Assembly: GCA_016209155.1 (NCBI GenBank) | Contig: JACQWU010000187.1 | Span: 1-9,017, forward strand | Direction of reading: 5' to 3' | DNA: 9,017 nucleotides | DNA from: Candidatus Desantisiibacteriota bacterium | GTDB lineage: Bacteria; JACRDZ01 | Part shown: positions 2,589 to 8,402 of the stretch, one piece after another | Position numbering within the stretch: the first letter of the stretch is position 1 | How the letters are laid out: each line of letters starts with the position of its first letter | The notes under the pieces: model-generated | Told to the model about the DNA's origin: nothing | What the model saw: the letters and a program-made list of their open reading frames with translations, nothing else | Databases searched by the model: none | Program-made: the position numbers and the translations under genes

Positions 2589-5500
2589 ATGAAAAAAATT
2601 AAATTTGGATTATTATTAATAGTTAGTATTCTTTTATTTGTATGGTCACAGCAAGCTTATGCAAAACAGATAATTAGTGCCATCCCACATGACCGCGCAG
2701 TGGATATTTATTGGGCAATTCCAAAATATAATCCTGATGGTTCTCCCTGCAGTGATCTTGCCGGAGTTTTTTTATTCCGCAGTATAAGCAAAGACGGGCC
2801 CTTTTCACTTGTAAATCCAAAAGTGGTTCCTCCAAATCAACGCTGGTGGCATGATGACCAAAAAATTAATAGAATAAAATATTTTTATAAAATTAAGGCT
2901 GTAGATGATGTGGGAAATTTAAGTGATTTTTCTCCTATGATTGAGGTTATCCCCTCAGGCGATGATGTACCGCCTGAACCTGTAGAGATTTTTGTTAAAT
3001 GCTGCCAGACTCCGCCTGATGTAGAAATCTCTTGGAGTCCGTCGGTAGATGATAAGGGTTTGTCTCATTACAATATTTACAGATCTTTAACAGAGATTAA
3101 AGATGAATATCTTTCACGTAACCGTAAAGGGATGCCTTCATTAATCGAACCCGCAATAAAAGTTGATGCTTCAAATTTAAAATTTATAGATAAAAAGGCT
3201 AAACCCGGGACAGTTTATTATTATAATGTTACAGCAGTTGATACCTCTGATAATGAATCAAAAGCCTCCAATACAATTTTTCTTAGAGTATGCGGTAATG
3301 ATATCAGCGCTCCAATTGTTGAGTCAGTATCTGAAGATACATATAATAAGCCTAAGAAAACCGGCAAGGAAATAACGGTGGTATTGGTCGGAGAAGCAAA
3401 ACTTGCAGCTTCCTATACTCTGGGACAATTTGCAGTTGAACTGCCAATGAAGGAAACTGCAAAACCCGGTACTTATTTTGCAATTTACACAGTTAAACCC
3501 GGGGATAATGGTACTCTTATTCCTTTAAGCGGAAAGCTGATAGATCCTGCCGGGAATATAACTGAGAAAAAAGGTGAGAATACAATAACAATAGATACTA
3601 TTCCACCCGCACCTGTAAAAGATTTAACCGCATCCACCGGATTTGATACTACTTTTGATGGTAAAAAAATGGATGTGTTTTCAAAAGTTGAACTTAAATG
3701 GGGAAAAAGCGATGATGCAGAGTATTATAAGATTTACCGTTATAATGAGCCTATTACAGAACAGAATATCAGTAAAGCTTTCGTTATAGCAAAACATCTG
3801 TCAAATGATACATTGTATTATAAAGATAGAACCGCAACTCCGGGACAGGTTGTATATTATACTACTGTCGGTAGTGATCTGGCGGAAAATGAGGCTGTTG
3901 TTTCTTCATGCGAGATAAAAGTAGCGGCAGATTCTTATCCGCCCAATATTGCAAAAGTTGTTGAAGATACACTCGGAATACCTCAAAAAGCAGGGAATAG
4001 GATTCAGGTAGTTTTATATGGTGAACCGTCATGCATTGCTTTATTTGATGTTGGTTCAAAAATAACCGGAGTCCCGATGAATGAAGTACTTATTGGGTCA
4101 GTTCATACAGGTACATATTCGGGAAGTTATGTGATTAAAGAAGATGATGACGTTGATAATATTCCTGTATTAGCGCATTTACGTGATGCTTTTGGGAATG
4201 AATCTATTTTGAAAACAGAAACCGGAATAACGATAAAAACACATTCAACAGATACCACTCCTCCTGAAATCACAAAAATTTTTCATAATAGTAAAGGAAT
4301 TGTTCTTGTTGAGAATCCTGAAGAAGGAGTTTTAACAGTCACAATGGAGGGTGAACCGGATGGAATCGCTTTCTTTGATATAGGAACAATGGTAAGAGGC
4401 ATAAAACTTTATCAGACAGAAACAAAAGGTGTTTATGAAGGTTCTTATAAAGTAGTAAAAGGCGATAACATTGGTAATGCTAAAATAACAGGGTATCTTT
4501 CAGATGCAAGCGGCAATGTTTCAACTAAAATATGCGATGATCCTGTTACAATCGATACGTCTGTAAGAATAAATGTGCAAAAGGAACCTGCAATTGAATT
4601 TCTAACAGCTGACAGTACAAGTACTGTTGGGATAGTAGCTATAGTTAATGATGCTCATAATAAACCTATAACCGGCAGAAAGATTGAATTTTCCTTGATT
4701 AGCAATTACGGAACTGTAACAACAGTAAATAGTATTACTGATAAAGACGGTAAAGCTAAAGGACAATATCAGGCAGGTATGGTTGTTCAGACAGCTTATA
4801 TTTGCGCGGAAGATGTTGAAACAGGCGCTGCAGGTATTACATATATTAAAATGACGAAAAGTACGGAATGTCAGATAACTCTGCGTTCTATGCAGAGGAG
4901 ATTCAGGACCTCAAACGGGATTTATTATATTGATATGGATGCTCATCCTGAACGAATTACAGCGGATGGCGCAAGTGTATCTATTATTACAGCTACAATA
5001 AGAAAAATAGGCGAAAGCGGAAAACTCGGACCAAAAAAGAGTGAAGAAACACCAACCAATATAAATACTGATGAAAGAATAAAAGGTGAGAAAGTTAAAT
5101 TTACGATTACTTCTCATCCTGATGATTCTCCCGGATCACTTCGTATACATCCAAAATATCTTGATGTTGTGGCAGACGGCTCAATCACAGATGATAACGG
5201 TGAAGCCAAAGCTATATATACAGCAGGGACAAAGATAGGGCTCACTATTATTCATGCGGTTGCCCCTCTTTCACCGGATAAAGGAGAACCGATTGCAGAA
5301 ATGGTTGGTATTTTATTAATAGCAGGAGAAGTACGGTATTTAACAATTATAGCTAAACCTGCTCTTCTTGATGCTGATGGAAAAAGTACATCTAATATTA
5401 CAGTTAAAGCTGAAGACAGCTTCAATAATCCATGTCGTGATATAAATGTTTCAATTGAAATAATACCTCCTCTCCCCGAAGCCGGAAAGATAGGAGTACA

Positions 5501-6128
5501 AGGCAGTGGACAGCAGTATACCACGAATGAAACCGGAGAAGCGGTGGCTGTGTATACGGCAGGAATTGTGCCCGGAAAAGTTACAATAAGGGCTACTGTT
5601 TCTTCTAATACACCTATTGATGATGCAGTTGCTTCCTATGCACAGGGGAAATACGAACAGGCAATTACTGTTTTTAAAGCAGCAATAGCAGAATATCCTC
5701 AGGATAACTGGACTGATGATTTATATTATATGATGGGCTATAGTGAAGAGCTTTTAAATTATTACAATGATTCCATAAACAGCTATAATGAAGTAGTAAG
5801 ATTCTATTTTGGCGGCCCATGGGCGGATAATGCTTTATATAGAACAGGACAGGTATATGAAAAAATGGGAGATTATTCTAAAGCAATTGATGCGTATACT
5901 GAACTTATAAATAATTCATATCTCCTGGAAAGCAGGGAAGTTTATAAGAATAATCTTATTGATAATGCATTATTCCGGATGGGAGTAATGTATGAACGTC
6001 TGGAACATTATGTTATGGCAAAAAAATGCTATATTGATTTAATTGATCGTTTTAAAGATACAGATGAAAATGCACTTATTGCAGATGCAGAAAGAGCCCT
6101 TGAAATACTAAGAGCCAGTGGATACTAA
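2589..6128 (+). CDS. Secreted FN3 / Ig-like / invasin-like protein with C-terminal TPR repeats
   Basis: This 1179-residue protein starts at ATG 2589. The N-terminus (MKKIKFGLLLIVSILLFVWS, then QQAYA|KQ) is a Sec signal peptide with probable cleavage after residue 25. FN3-like modules lie at about 26-122, 127-235 and 338-450, with YYYNVTAVD-type strands; a CC pair and a later Cys flank the second. Three copies of a repeat centred on 'V.L.GEP...A.FD.G' and ending 'G.L.DA.GN' lie at about 241-337, 451-553 and 556-658. Big_1/invasin-like domains lie at about 661-757, 762-912 and 913-1008; the last shows ADGKSTSNITVKAED and TNETGEAVAVYTAG. A TPR block covers about 1010-1179 (YAQGKYEQAITVFKAAI, YEKMGDYSKAIDAYTELI, YERLEHYVMAKKCYIDLI). 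FN3 and Big_1 stalks are typical of surface or periplasmic proteins, and TPRs bind proteins, so a structural or assembly role in the envelope is inferred. No catalytic site is seen. An intrinsic terminator follows the stop codon. Confidence 0.85.
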   Translation: MKKIKFGLLLIVSILLFVWSQQAYAKQIISAIPHDRAVDIYWAIPKYNPDGSPCSDLAGVFLFRSISKDGPFSLVNPKVVPPNQRWWHDDQKINRIKYFYKIKAVDDVGNLSDFSPMIEVIPSGDDVPPEPVEIFVKCCQTPPDVEISWSPSVDDKGLSHYNIYRSLTEIKDEYLSRNRKGMPSLIEPAIKVDASNLKFIDKKAKPGTVYYYNVTAVDTSDNESKASNTIFLRVCGNDISAPIVESVSEDTYNKPKKTGKEITVVLVGEAKLAASYTLGQFAVELPMKETAKPGTYFAIYTVKPGDNGTLIPLSGKLIDPAGNITEKKGENTITIDTIPPAPVKDLTASTGFDTTFDGKKMDVFSKVELKWGKSDDAEYYKIYRYNEPITEQNISKAFVIAKHLSNDTLYYKDRTATPGQVVYYTTVGSDLAENEAVVSSCEIKVAADSYPPNIAKVVEDTLGIPQKAGNRIQVVLYGEPSCIALFDVGSKITGVPMNEVLIGSVHTGTYSGSYVIKEDDDVDNIPVLAHLRDAFGNESILKTETGITIKTHSTDTTPPEITKIFHNSKGIVLVENPEEGVLTVTMEGEPDGIAFFDIGTMVRGIKLYQTETKGVYEGSYKVVKGDNIGNAKITGYLSDASGNVSTKICDDPVTIDTSVRINVQKEPAIEFLTADSTSTVGIVAIVNDAHNKPITGRKIEFSLISNYGTVTTVNSITDKDGKAKGQYQAGMVVQTAYICAEDVETGAAGITYIKMTKSTECQITLRSMQRRFRTSNGIYYIDMDAHPERITADGASVSIITATIRKIGESGKLGPKKSEETPTNINTDERIKGEKVKFTITSHPDDSPGSLRIHPKYLDVVADGSITDDNGEAKAIYTAGTKIGLTIIHAVAPLSPDKGEPIAEMVGILLIAGEVRYLTIIAKPALLDADGKSTSNITVKAEDSFNNPCRDINVSIEIIPPLPEAGKIGVQGSGQQYTTNETGEAVAVYTAGIVPGKVTIRATVSSNTPIDDAVASYAQGKYEQAITVFKAAIAEYPQDNWTDDLYYMMGYSEELLNYYNDSINSYNEVVRFYFGGPWADNALYRTGQVYEKMGDYSKAIDAYTELINNSYLLESREVYKNNLIDNALFRMGVMYERLEHYVMAKKCYIDLIDRFKDTDENALIADAERALEILRASGY

Positions 6129-6150
6129 TTGTACACGAAGTTAAAATTTA

Positions 6151-6191
6151 CGAGCAGGACAGGTTAACGACTTGTCCTGCTTGTTTTTTTT
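6151..6191 (+). terminator. Strong intrinsic (Rho-independent) terminator
   Basis: A hairpin begins 22 nt after the stop of the FN3/Ig/TPR gene. CGAGCAGGACAGG (6151-6163) pairs with CTTGTCCTGCTTG (6171-6183), 13 bp including a few G-T pairs, around the loop TTAACGA. Eight T residues follow at 6184-6191. The core AGCAGGACA/TGTCCTGCT is a perfect 9-bp stem. It should end transcription of the upstream unit, so the ResB-like frame that begins right behind it would need its own promoter, and none is obvious. Confidence 0.85.
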
Positions 6192-6197
6192 AAAGAA

Positions 6198-6287
6198 AAT
6201 TTAGAATCAGAAATATATCATTCATGGTGGTATATTACCGTTCAAATATTACTTTTTATAAATATTTTAATATGCAGTATAGAACGG
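6198..6287 (+). other. In-frame ResB coding remnant without a start codon
   Basis: The frame of the ResB-like gene stays open upstream of TTG 6288 back to a TAA at 6165-6167. From about 6198 it reads NLESEIYHSWWYITVQIL followed by LFINILICSIERL. In ResB-family proteins the segment before the second membrane helix typically reads like '.YHSWWF...LL.LN...CS..RLP', so this looks like genuine homologous coding sequence. It contains no ATG, GTG or TTG; the only near-standard codon further up, CTG 6177, lies inside the terminator stem. The first ResB helix and its Gly-Thr-x-Ile-Pro-Gln-type motif are not found upstream. Either the gene was cut here or an unusual start is used. Confidence 0.7.
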
Positions 6288-7451
6288 TTGCCGCAAAATT
6301 TGAAAATTACCCGGCGTAAGACAGATATACTGTTGTTGACCAAAGAAACTGTAAATAGTATGCCTGTAAAATATGAATTTACATCCAATGATATATCGGA
6401 TTCATGCAAAAACGAAAATGTAGACGAAAAATTTAATAATATACTTGAGTATTTGAGGAAAAAGAATTATGATATAATAAATAAATCCGGCATATCAGGT
6501 GTAAAAGAAAGTGCGTCTTTAAGTGATGGAAACTGGTTTTTTGCGGAGAAAGGGAAAATCAGATATTGGGGTTCATATTTAACACATTTTGGTATTTTGC
6601 TTTTTATAACCGGATATATAACGGGAAAAGTGTTCGGTTTTTTAGGTACAGTGTATATTTATAATGATACTGACATAAATTATTGTTATAATTGGTATGA
6701 GAAAAAGGATAAATTATTTGATTTTAAAGTTTATCTGGAAAATTTAGATATAATTTTTTATCCCGTAAAAGCAAAACTTGAAATTATTTCATTAAATGAT
6801 AATAGAAGAATTATTCAAAATATTAATGAAAATGAAAAAGTTTATCTGGAAATTGGAAATTATACTGTGATTTTGGAATTTAGCGGTTTTATACCTGATG
6901 CTATGGTAAAAGACGGTATGGTTTATCAAATTTCAAAAGTTGCAGCTAATCCCTGTTTTATTTTTAAAATTTATGATAAAAATAAAAATTTTCTGTTTAC
7001 GCATTTTTTATTTTTAGATAAAAGTTATGTGAATTCTCTGGAAAATTTAGGGTTTAGATTGGAAGTAAAAAAATATAAAGCTGTTGAAAGTGAAATAAAA
7101 GGCGATTTGATTTTTTTGAATAATGAGCAGATATTAAAAAGAGAAACTTTAAAAATTAATAAACCTGTAAATTTTAAAGGAAAAAATTTTTATTTGGTAA
7201 CCTACGGACAGGATGAATTTAAAAATACCAGGATTGGCCTGCAAATTACCGAAGATCCTGGTATATATATTATATGGAGCAGTTTTATATTTATGTTATC
7301 AGGAATTATTATTTCATTTTTTATTTATCATATAAAAATATATACATATAAGGATAATAACTCTATTATAATAGGAGGCATATGCGGCAAAAGTAATTAT
7401 ATAGTAGAGAAGGAGCTAAAAAAAATAAAGAAGGAGATAGAAAATGATTAG
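6288..7451 (+). CDS. resB: ResB-family cytochrome c biogenesis protein, N-terminally truncated
   Basis: ResB (also called Ccs1/CcsB) works with CcsA/ResC in System II cytochrome c maturation, keeping apocytochrome ready for heme attachment on the outer face of the membrane. TTG 6288 is the first standard start codon in the frame, but it has no Shine-Dalgarno sequence; ATG 6360 is equally poor. From TTG 6288 a membrane segment lies at about 94-115 (WGSYLTHFGILLFITGY, conserved-type His at 100), followed by an extracytoplasmic beta-rich region at about 120-320. The typical ResB ending comes next: DPGIYIIWSSFIFMLSGIII (from 323), a His at about 348, and an IIGGICGKSNYI tail. Residues matching ResB continue upstream to about 6198, while the first helix is missing. 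The body has no internal stop and overlaps the lipoprotein gene by 8 bp. No CcsA partner is present. It may be a functional short variant, a recent pseudogene or an assembly junction. Confidence 0.75.
   Translation: MPQNLKITRRKTDILLLTKETVNSMPVKYEFTSNDISDSCKNENVDEKFNNILEYLRKKNYDIINKSGISGVKESASLSDGNWFFAEKGKIRYWGSYLTHFGILLFITGYITGKVFGFLGTVYIYNDTDINYCYNWYEKKDKLFDFKVYLENLDIIFYPVKAKLEIISLNDNRRIIQNINENEKVYLEIGNYTVILEFSGFIPDAMVKDGMVYQISKVAANPCFIFKIYDKNKNFLFTHFLFLDKSYVNSLENLGFRLEVKKYKAVESEIKGDLIFLNNEQILKRETLKINKPVNFKGKNFYLVTYGQDEFKNTRIGLQITEDPGIYIIWSSFIFMLSGIIISFFIYHIKIYTYKDNNSIIIGGICGKSNYIVEKELKKIKKEIEND
7431..7436 (+). promoter_or_regulatory. Ribosome binding site of the lipoprotein gene
   Basis: AAGGAG lies 7 nt before ATG 7444, inside the 3' end of the ResB-like frame. 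It is the clearest Shine-Dalgarno sequence in this unit. With the 8-bp overlap it suggests that the two genes are transcribed together and translationally coupled. Confidence 0.75.
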
Positions 7452-8247
7452 AAAAAAGTTGATATTGATATTGTTTGTTTTTTTAAGTTTTTACCTGTTC
7501 TCCTGTGCAGTAAATAAAGAGGAGGTTAAAAAAGCAGGGCCTTCAATTATTGGTATAGTATATGATGAAAGTGGAATTCCTCTTGATAGAGCTATAATTT
7601 CAATTTATTTGTCAAATGCGAATTTATTTCATGGCCCTGATAACTACCATTCCAATTTTACGGGAAATGACGGTGCTTTTAGTTTAGATTTACCTGATGG
7701 AAATTATTATATTGTAGCCCGGAAAAGAATAAACGGGGCTTATACCGGACCGCTAACCAATGGAGATTATAACGGGGAGTACGCAAATAATCCCATAAAG
7801 GTAATTTCAGGAAAAACCGTAAAAGTGGAAATTACAGCTCAGAAAATAGAAGGTTTAATGCTGTACAGCCCTATGAATGCATCTAGAAATCATATTCAAT
7901 TAAAGGGTATAGTTAAAGATAAATCCGGAAATTTTAAGGAAGGTATGTTTGTTGTGGGATATACAAGTCCTACAATGTGGAATAAACCGGATTATATTTC
8001 TCAACCTACTAATGCAAAAGGTGAATTTGTACTATATGTGGATAAACCCGGCACATACTATTTATTAGCTAAACAGGTTTTTAAAAAGCCTCCTGTCGTC
8101 GGTGAGCTGGTTGGAAATTATGCAGGATCGAATGATCATGGTATTGAAGTAAAAGATGAGAAAGGAATTGTTGATCTGATATTAATTGTCGCCCCTTTTA
8201 CAGAGGAGCAGTTAAAACAACTTAATAAAAAAATAGAAACAAAATAA
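7444..8247 (+). CDS. Lipoprotein with two carboxypeptidase-regulatory-like domains
   Basis: This 267-residue protein has a strong SD sequence in front of its ATG. It begins with KK and a hydrophobic run ending LFSC, with Cys21 as the probable lipidation site. Phe at -2 is not the usual lipobox residue, but Ser at -1 and Ala at +2 fit, and Ala at +2 would allow outer-membrane sorting in a diderm. Two CarboxypepD_reg-like beta sandwiches follow. The first is at about 34-133 (IIGIVYDESGIPLDRA, GNDGAFSLDLPDGNYYIVAR). The second is at about 152-250 (LKGIVKDKSGNFKEG, NAKGEFVLYVDKPGTYYLLA). Each ends with a similar 'GNY...I.V..G' element, so the protein is an internal duplication. There is no peptidase catalytic domain; the name refers only to the fold. 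Domains of this kind occur on many surface proteins. The 8-bp overlap with ResB suggests a link to heme or cytochrome proteins at the cell surface, which is inference. Confidence 0.8.
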   Translation: MIRKKLILILFVFLSFYLFSCAVNKEEVKKAGPSIIGIVYDESGIPLDRAIISIYLSNANLFHGPDNYHSNFTGNDGAFSLDLPDGNYYIVARKRINGAYTGPLTNGDYNGEYANNPIKVISGKTVKVEITAQKIEGLMLYSPMNASRNHIQLKGIVKDKSGNFKEGMFVVGYTSPTMWNKPDYISQPTNAKGEFVLYVDKPGTYYLLAKQVFKKPPVVGELVGNYAGSNDHGIEVKDEKGIVDLILIVAPFTEEQLKQLNKKIETK

Positions 8248-8260
8248 AATCGGTGCAATT

Positions 8261-8336
8261 TGTCATTCCTGCGAAGGCAGGAATCCAGATGTTTTAAAAG
8301 CTCTGGATTTCCCAATTAAATATGTTTGGAATGACA
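8261..8336 (+). repeat. 76-bp palindromic REP/MITE-like element
   Basis: The outer arms TGTCATTCC (8261-8269) and GGAATGACA (8328-8336) are perfect inverted repeats. Two hairpins sit inside. ATTCCTGC (8265-8272) pairs with GCAGGAAT (8277-8284) across the loop GAAG, and AATCCAGA (8282-8289) pairs with TCTGGATT (8302-8309). The outer and first inner arms overlap, so alternative folds compete. The wording 'GTCATTCC(T/C)GCG..GGCAGGAATCCAG' matches a palindromic repeat style that is common in intergenic DNA of diverse bacteria. It lies between the lipoprotein and U32 genes. No clear target-site duplication is seen and no T-run follows, so a terminator role is doubtful. Confidence 0.8.
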
Positions 8337-8402
8337 GCCAAAGAAGCGTTTACTCACATCAATAACCGAGGCGATACGTTTGGAAAAGGAGCAGAGTCTT
8401 GA
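8322..8402 (+). CDS. Small ORF (26 aa) overlapping the start of the U32 gene
   Basis: ATG 8322, or ATG 8331 within the same frame, opens a frame reading MFGMTAKEAFTHINN and then RGDTFGKGAES. Its TGA stop (8400-8402) overlaps the TTG start of the U32 gene as TTGA. Neither ATG has a convincing Shine-Dalgarno sequence, and both lie in the right arm of the palindromic repeat. The codons after 8336 look like normal coding usage (GCC AAA GAA GCG, CGA GGC GAT ACG) and are less AT-rich than the flanks. The family is not recognised. It could be a real small peptide coupled to the U32 enzyme, the C-terminal remnant of a longer gene cut by the repeat, or chance. The SD of the U32 gene lies inside this frame, as in coupled gene pairs. 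Confidence 0.35.
   Translation: MFGMTAKEAFTHINNRGDTFGKGAES
8386..8391 (+). promoter_or_regulatory. Ribosome binding site deciding the TTG start of the U32 gene
   Basis: AAGGAG ends 7 nt before TTG 8399. The U32 frame is closed upstream by TAA 8363-8365 and has no ATG for more than 100 codons downstream, so TTG 8399 is the best start. Confidence 0.75.

Follow-up and report, generated by a model that had tools for sequence, protein, structure and literature searches.

The ResB/Ccs1/CcsB family (PF05140) belongs to System II of cytochrome c biogenesis. In these proteins, the transmembrane histidine that ligates haem sits in the third helix (TM3), and TM1 of CcsB was reported to coevolve with TM8 of its partner CcsA (PMC6299221). 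A different kind of precedent comes from curated metagenome assemblies, in which local assembly and scaffolding errors were sought and corrected (PMC6784885, PMC6031116).

The window analysed here covers contig C88 of draft genome G000 from end to end (9017 bases). G000 is an assembly of 352 contigs with a completeness of 78.8% and a contamination of 2.28%. It carries a resB gene whose start and first membrane helix are genuinely absent from this draft sequence. As judged by comparison of sequences, this loss is most probably a local assembly or scaffolding error rather than new biology. The distant reference was G001, a 98% complete genome from another family of the same phylum. The nearest relatives compared belong to the same phylum only, at about 30% ResB identity to the window, and a scan of GTDB genome contigs for closer relatives came to two contigs only. 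The features on which the argument rests are as follows.

2589..6128, plus strand: upstream gene for a large surface-type protein with fn3, Ig (Big_1, Invasin_D3) and TPR domains, complete at its 3' end
6150..6191, plus strand: intrinsic terminator, a 16-pair hairpin (6150-6184) with a T-run; one found against 0.1 expected from shuffles
6185..6207, plus strand: interval of the deletion junction, from the terminator T-run to the first residue alignable with ResB, placed by alignment and tblastn
6207..7451, plus strand: ResB remnant with TM2, TM3 (conserved His), the extracytoplasmic domain and TM4, lacking TM1, start codon and Shine–Dalgarno sequence (SD)
7444..8247, plus strand: downstream gene that overlaps the ResB stop and encodes a CarboxypepD_reg domain protein; the same neighbour is found in G001 and G003

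The remnant matches the Pfam ResB profile with 131.4 bits, against a cut-off of 24.6. Its frame is open from 6168, directly behind the last preceding stop (TAA 6165-6167), to 7451. The profile match starts at residue 15 (base 6210), which corresponds to profile position 52, and the first 51 positions are absent. Similarly, tblastn with the G001 ResB aligns from residue 61 of that protein, at window base 6207. Hydropathy analysis recovers only TM2, TM3 and TM4 in the remnant, against four helices in three relatives, while the TM3 histidine, within the motif THFGILL, is aligned and invariant. The initial annotation had read the second ResB helix in frame right behind the terminator T-run, and the remainder of the frame as free of stops and coupled to its neighbour. 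Both readings hold, since similarity begins at 6207-6210 and the ATG at 7444 lies just ahead of, and overlaps, the ResB stop at 7449-7451, a coupling as expected. That annotation also proposed aligning the protein from 6168 onward with full-length ResB and named a lack of similarity before 6288 as counter-evidence; similarity is indeed present there.

A first helix encoded in another frame was considered and rejected, as only about 70 nt separate the upstream stop from the ResB-like part, half of them terminator. When residues 1-95 of the G001 ResB were searched across the assembly, the matches were C88 itself and a weak one on C177 (E 0.096), which was taken as chance.

Related genomes, which the initial annotation suggested consulting, contain the missing N-terminus in the same genetic context. 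In G001, the large Ig/fn3/TPR gene is followed after 368 nt by a four-helix ResB (436 aa, N-terminus MLTKRLGDRIYQFFKSRKLAVSLLFLL) and then by the CarboxypepD_reg gene, the same three-gene order as in the window. In G003, a full-length ResB (437 aa) precedes the same downstream gene, and the contig starts just before ResB. The upstream gene of the window is 33% identical to the gene located 5' of the full-length ResB in G001 (1132 alignment columns), and the downstream gene is 33% identical to its G001 counterpart (261 alignment columns). Moreover, the upstream gene ends at a stop at 6126-6128 with the C-terminus ...RASGY*, resembling ...LRGY* in G001. Because the flanking genes are the G001 neighbours in the same order, both sides of the junction belong together. 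This comparison supports a local loss, which took the 5' leader together with roughly 60 codons, at least about 180 nt as judged by G001.

Several further elements were observed around these genes. A long inverted repeat with arms GATAGATAG...CTATCTATC, which looks like a MITE-type element, occupies the gap between the Ig/TPR and ResB genes in G001 (L020 ~3535-3815). In the window, a REP-like palindromic repeat, GTCATTCCTGCGAAGGCAGGAATCC, lies 3' of the downstream gene (8260-8340). When the terminator was considered as a repeated mobile element, its matches in the genome were only short, partial and terminator-like. ResB genes of the window type adjoin carboxypeptidase-regulatory-domain and moaA-like genes, with no CcsA alongside (L019:226-2325, L020:3854-5949).

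The window ResB is not the only copy in G000. A second one, on C144 (L018:4589-5575, minus strand), has lost 71 nt relative to G001 and G003, and a third, on C77, is cut off by the contig end. CcsA-type proteins, the CcsA/ResC partners of System II, are encoded on C77 and C62; in the stretches read, no CcsA was seen beside the window ResB or its full-length relatives in G001 and G003. All four phylum genomes combine System I (CcmE) with System II (ResB), and ResB is present in each of them in two or three copies. System I genes of the CcmA/B/C/F/H-like types were also seen in G000, on contig C153 (L041:1-5372).

The broken second ResB on C144 led to a wider test of the draft genome, in which G001 frames were aligned to G000 DNA and G000 frames to G001 DNA, covering 395,733 bases of G000 (13%) and 1,076,194 bases of G001 (40%). 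Nine frame-changing breaks were found in 180 matched G000 frames (54,968 aligned residues), each of them a net loss. Their sizes were about 28, 71, 100, 133, 140, 158, 220, 353 and 385 nt, the 28-nt case being uncertain because the proteins are only 36% identical there. In the reverse comparison, in which G001 served as the single control genome for the break rate, no frame-changing break occurred in 129 matched frames (40,245 residues). The G000 sample was partly non-random, with C88, C77, C144, C62 and C153 picked for their cytochrome genes; about four of the nine breaks lie on C77, C144 and C62, none on C88 or C153, and about six on contigs taken by number, versus none in G001. Over the coding sequence compared, this amounts to about one break in every 18 kb, so that a single break is not surprising for a window of 9 kb. 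Apart from the second ResB, the broken genes, whose names were read from the sequences rather than assigned by family search, have their junctions at the following positions.

L017:7380: Mfd, on contig C77
L050:13839: P-type ATPase, on contig C3, 78% identical to that of G001
L058:1549: pyruvate phosphate dikinase
L040:3262: DHH/CBS/tRNA nucleotidyltransferase-type protein
L055:2691: LytS-like sensor
L098:13056: AbiEii-like protein
L098:5704: multihaem cytochrome

Additionally, the transketolase C-subunit gene on C153 seems, by eye, to have lost its start likewise. A reference-free scan found about a dozen long G000 frames without a start in at least the first 25 codons, against two or three in G001. 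The internal N-runs of G000 vary from 9 to 106, like scaffolder leftovers, in a count that leaves out runs filling a whole contig.

Genome decay would normally also give stops and indels of 1-2 nt. Premature stops within the matches were not in excess, however, at 6/178 in G000 versus 4/130 in G001, and no clear 1-2 nt indels were found among the G000 breaks. Deletions of about 70-400 nt in housekeeping genes, with no clear small indels and no excess of stops, therefore fit assembly errors better than gene decay. An assembly error is favoured at the resB site because many deletions of the same kind occur elsewhere in the draft genome. The pattern it would leave is present: the flanks are collinear in relatives with the segment missing, and the defect recurs in unrelated genes while being absent from the control genome. 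We infer that the loss arose in the assembly and not in the cell. On this reading, small local errors are frequent in the draft genome to which the contig belongs, and the stretch from the terminator to about codon 61 of resB (promoter or leader, SD, start and TM1; at least about 180 nt) was probably dropped when two pieces of one locus were set next to each other. The organism itself would most likely carry resB as an ordinary full-length four-helix System II gene. Thus, the misjoin considered in the initial annotation survives in its local form, which the similar deletions across the genome favour, but not as a long-range joining, given the gene order conserved in G001.

A real, recent deletion of the resB leader, start and TM1, leaving a young pseudogene, is considered unlikely, although several observations agree with it. 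The remaining frame is open and conserved, the second ResB is broken as well, and the junction falls neatly behind the terminator, as that of a real deletion could. The CcmE and CcmF/A/B/C/H-like genes of G000 mean that System II may be redundant, which could make its loss tolerable. The relatives are also distant, at about 30% ResB identity within the phylum, so a lineage-specific loss at this site keeps some probability. Yet breaks of the same size class affect unrelated housekeeping genes with no excess of premature stops, and the three other phylum genomes have CcmE while retaining full-length ResBs.

It is highly improbable that translation from a weak start or a non-canonical one, namely CTG 6177, TTG 6288 or ATG 6360, yields a working short ResB. 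An open frame of 387 codons does run from 6288, the TM3 histidine is retained and the downstream gene overlaps, and a start after TM2 would preserve the N-in topology with two helices. However, the in-frame CTG 6177 falls within the terminator stem. The first in-frame ATG, GTG or TTG is TTG 6288, followed by more TTGs and by ATG 6360, and anti-SD pairing reaches only -1.1 kcal/mol at TTG 6288 and -0.9 kcal/mol at ATG 6360, against -8.8 and -7.9 kcal/mol for the next two genes (7444 and 8399). No SD-backed start of the kind expected of a translatable gene was found in the first 20% of the ResB frame. Among the ResB genes of the three other phylum genomes, six match from profile position 2 (a seventh, on C207 of G002, matches only from position 149), and the reported coevolution of CcsB TM1 with CcsA TM8 also speaks against dispensing with TM1. 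The initial annotation was therefore right that no standard start codon, SD or first helix precedes the remnant, while its suggestion of a non-canonical start gained nothing in support. That a real ResB without TM1, from a non-standard start or one after TM2, still works in haem export is barely credible.

The joining of two unrelated loci by rearrangement or long-range misjoin, also raised in the initial annotation, can practically be dismissed despite the abrupt junction right behind the terminator, because both flanking genes are the G001 neighbours; of that proposal, what stands is that the leader and about 60 codons were lost locally.

The finding is an ordinary one. As about one frame-breaking deletion occurs per 18 kb, genes of G000 that seem to be lost or to lack their 5' end, and unusual junctions, should not be taken as biology until the reads are checked.

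Compared with the ResB/Ccs1/CcsB family (PF05140), the window remnant is alike from TM2 to the C-terminus, in its TM3 histidine and in the gene neighbours shared with G001, and it differs in lacking the first ~60 residues including TM1, the start codon and the SD. The C144 paralogue, of a short type (351 aa in G003, 361 aa in G001), likewise has its break in the region of TM1 and TM2, where the 71-nt deletion left no filler. Unlike the window remnant, it keeps its start and TM1, loses TM2 and shifts in frame. The error proposed here from sequence comparison resembles the local assembly errors of short-read metagenomes in the small loss within a collinear locus, the many cases per assembly and the variable N-runs (PMC6784885, PMC6031116).
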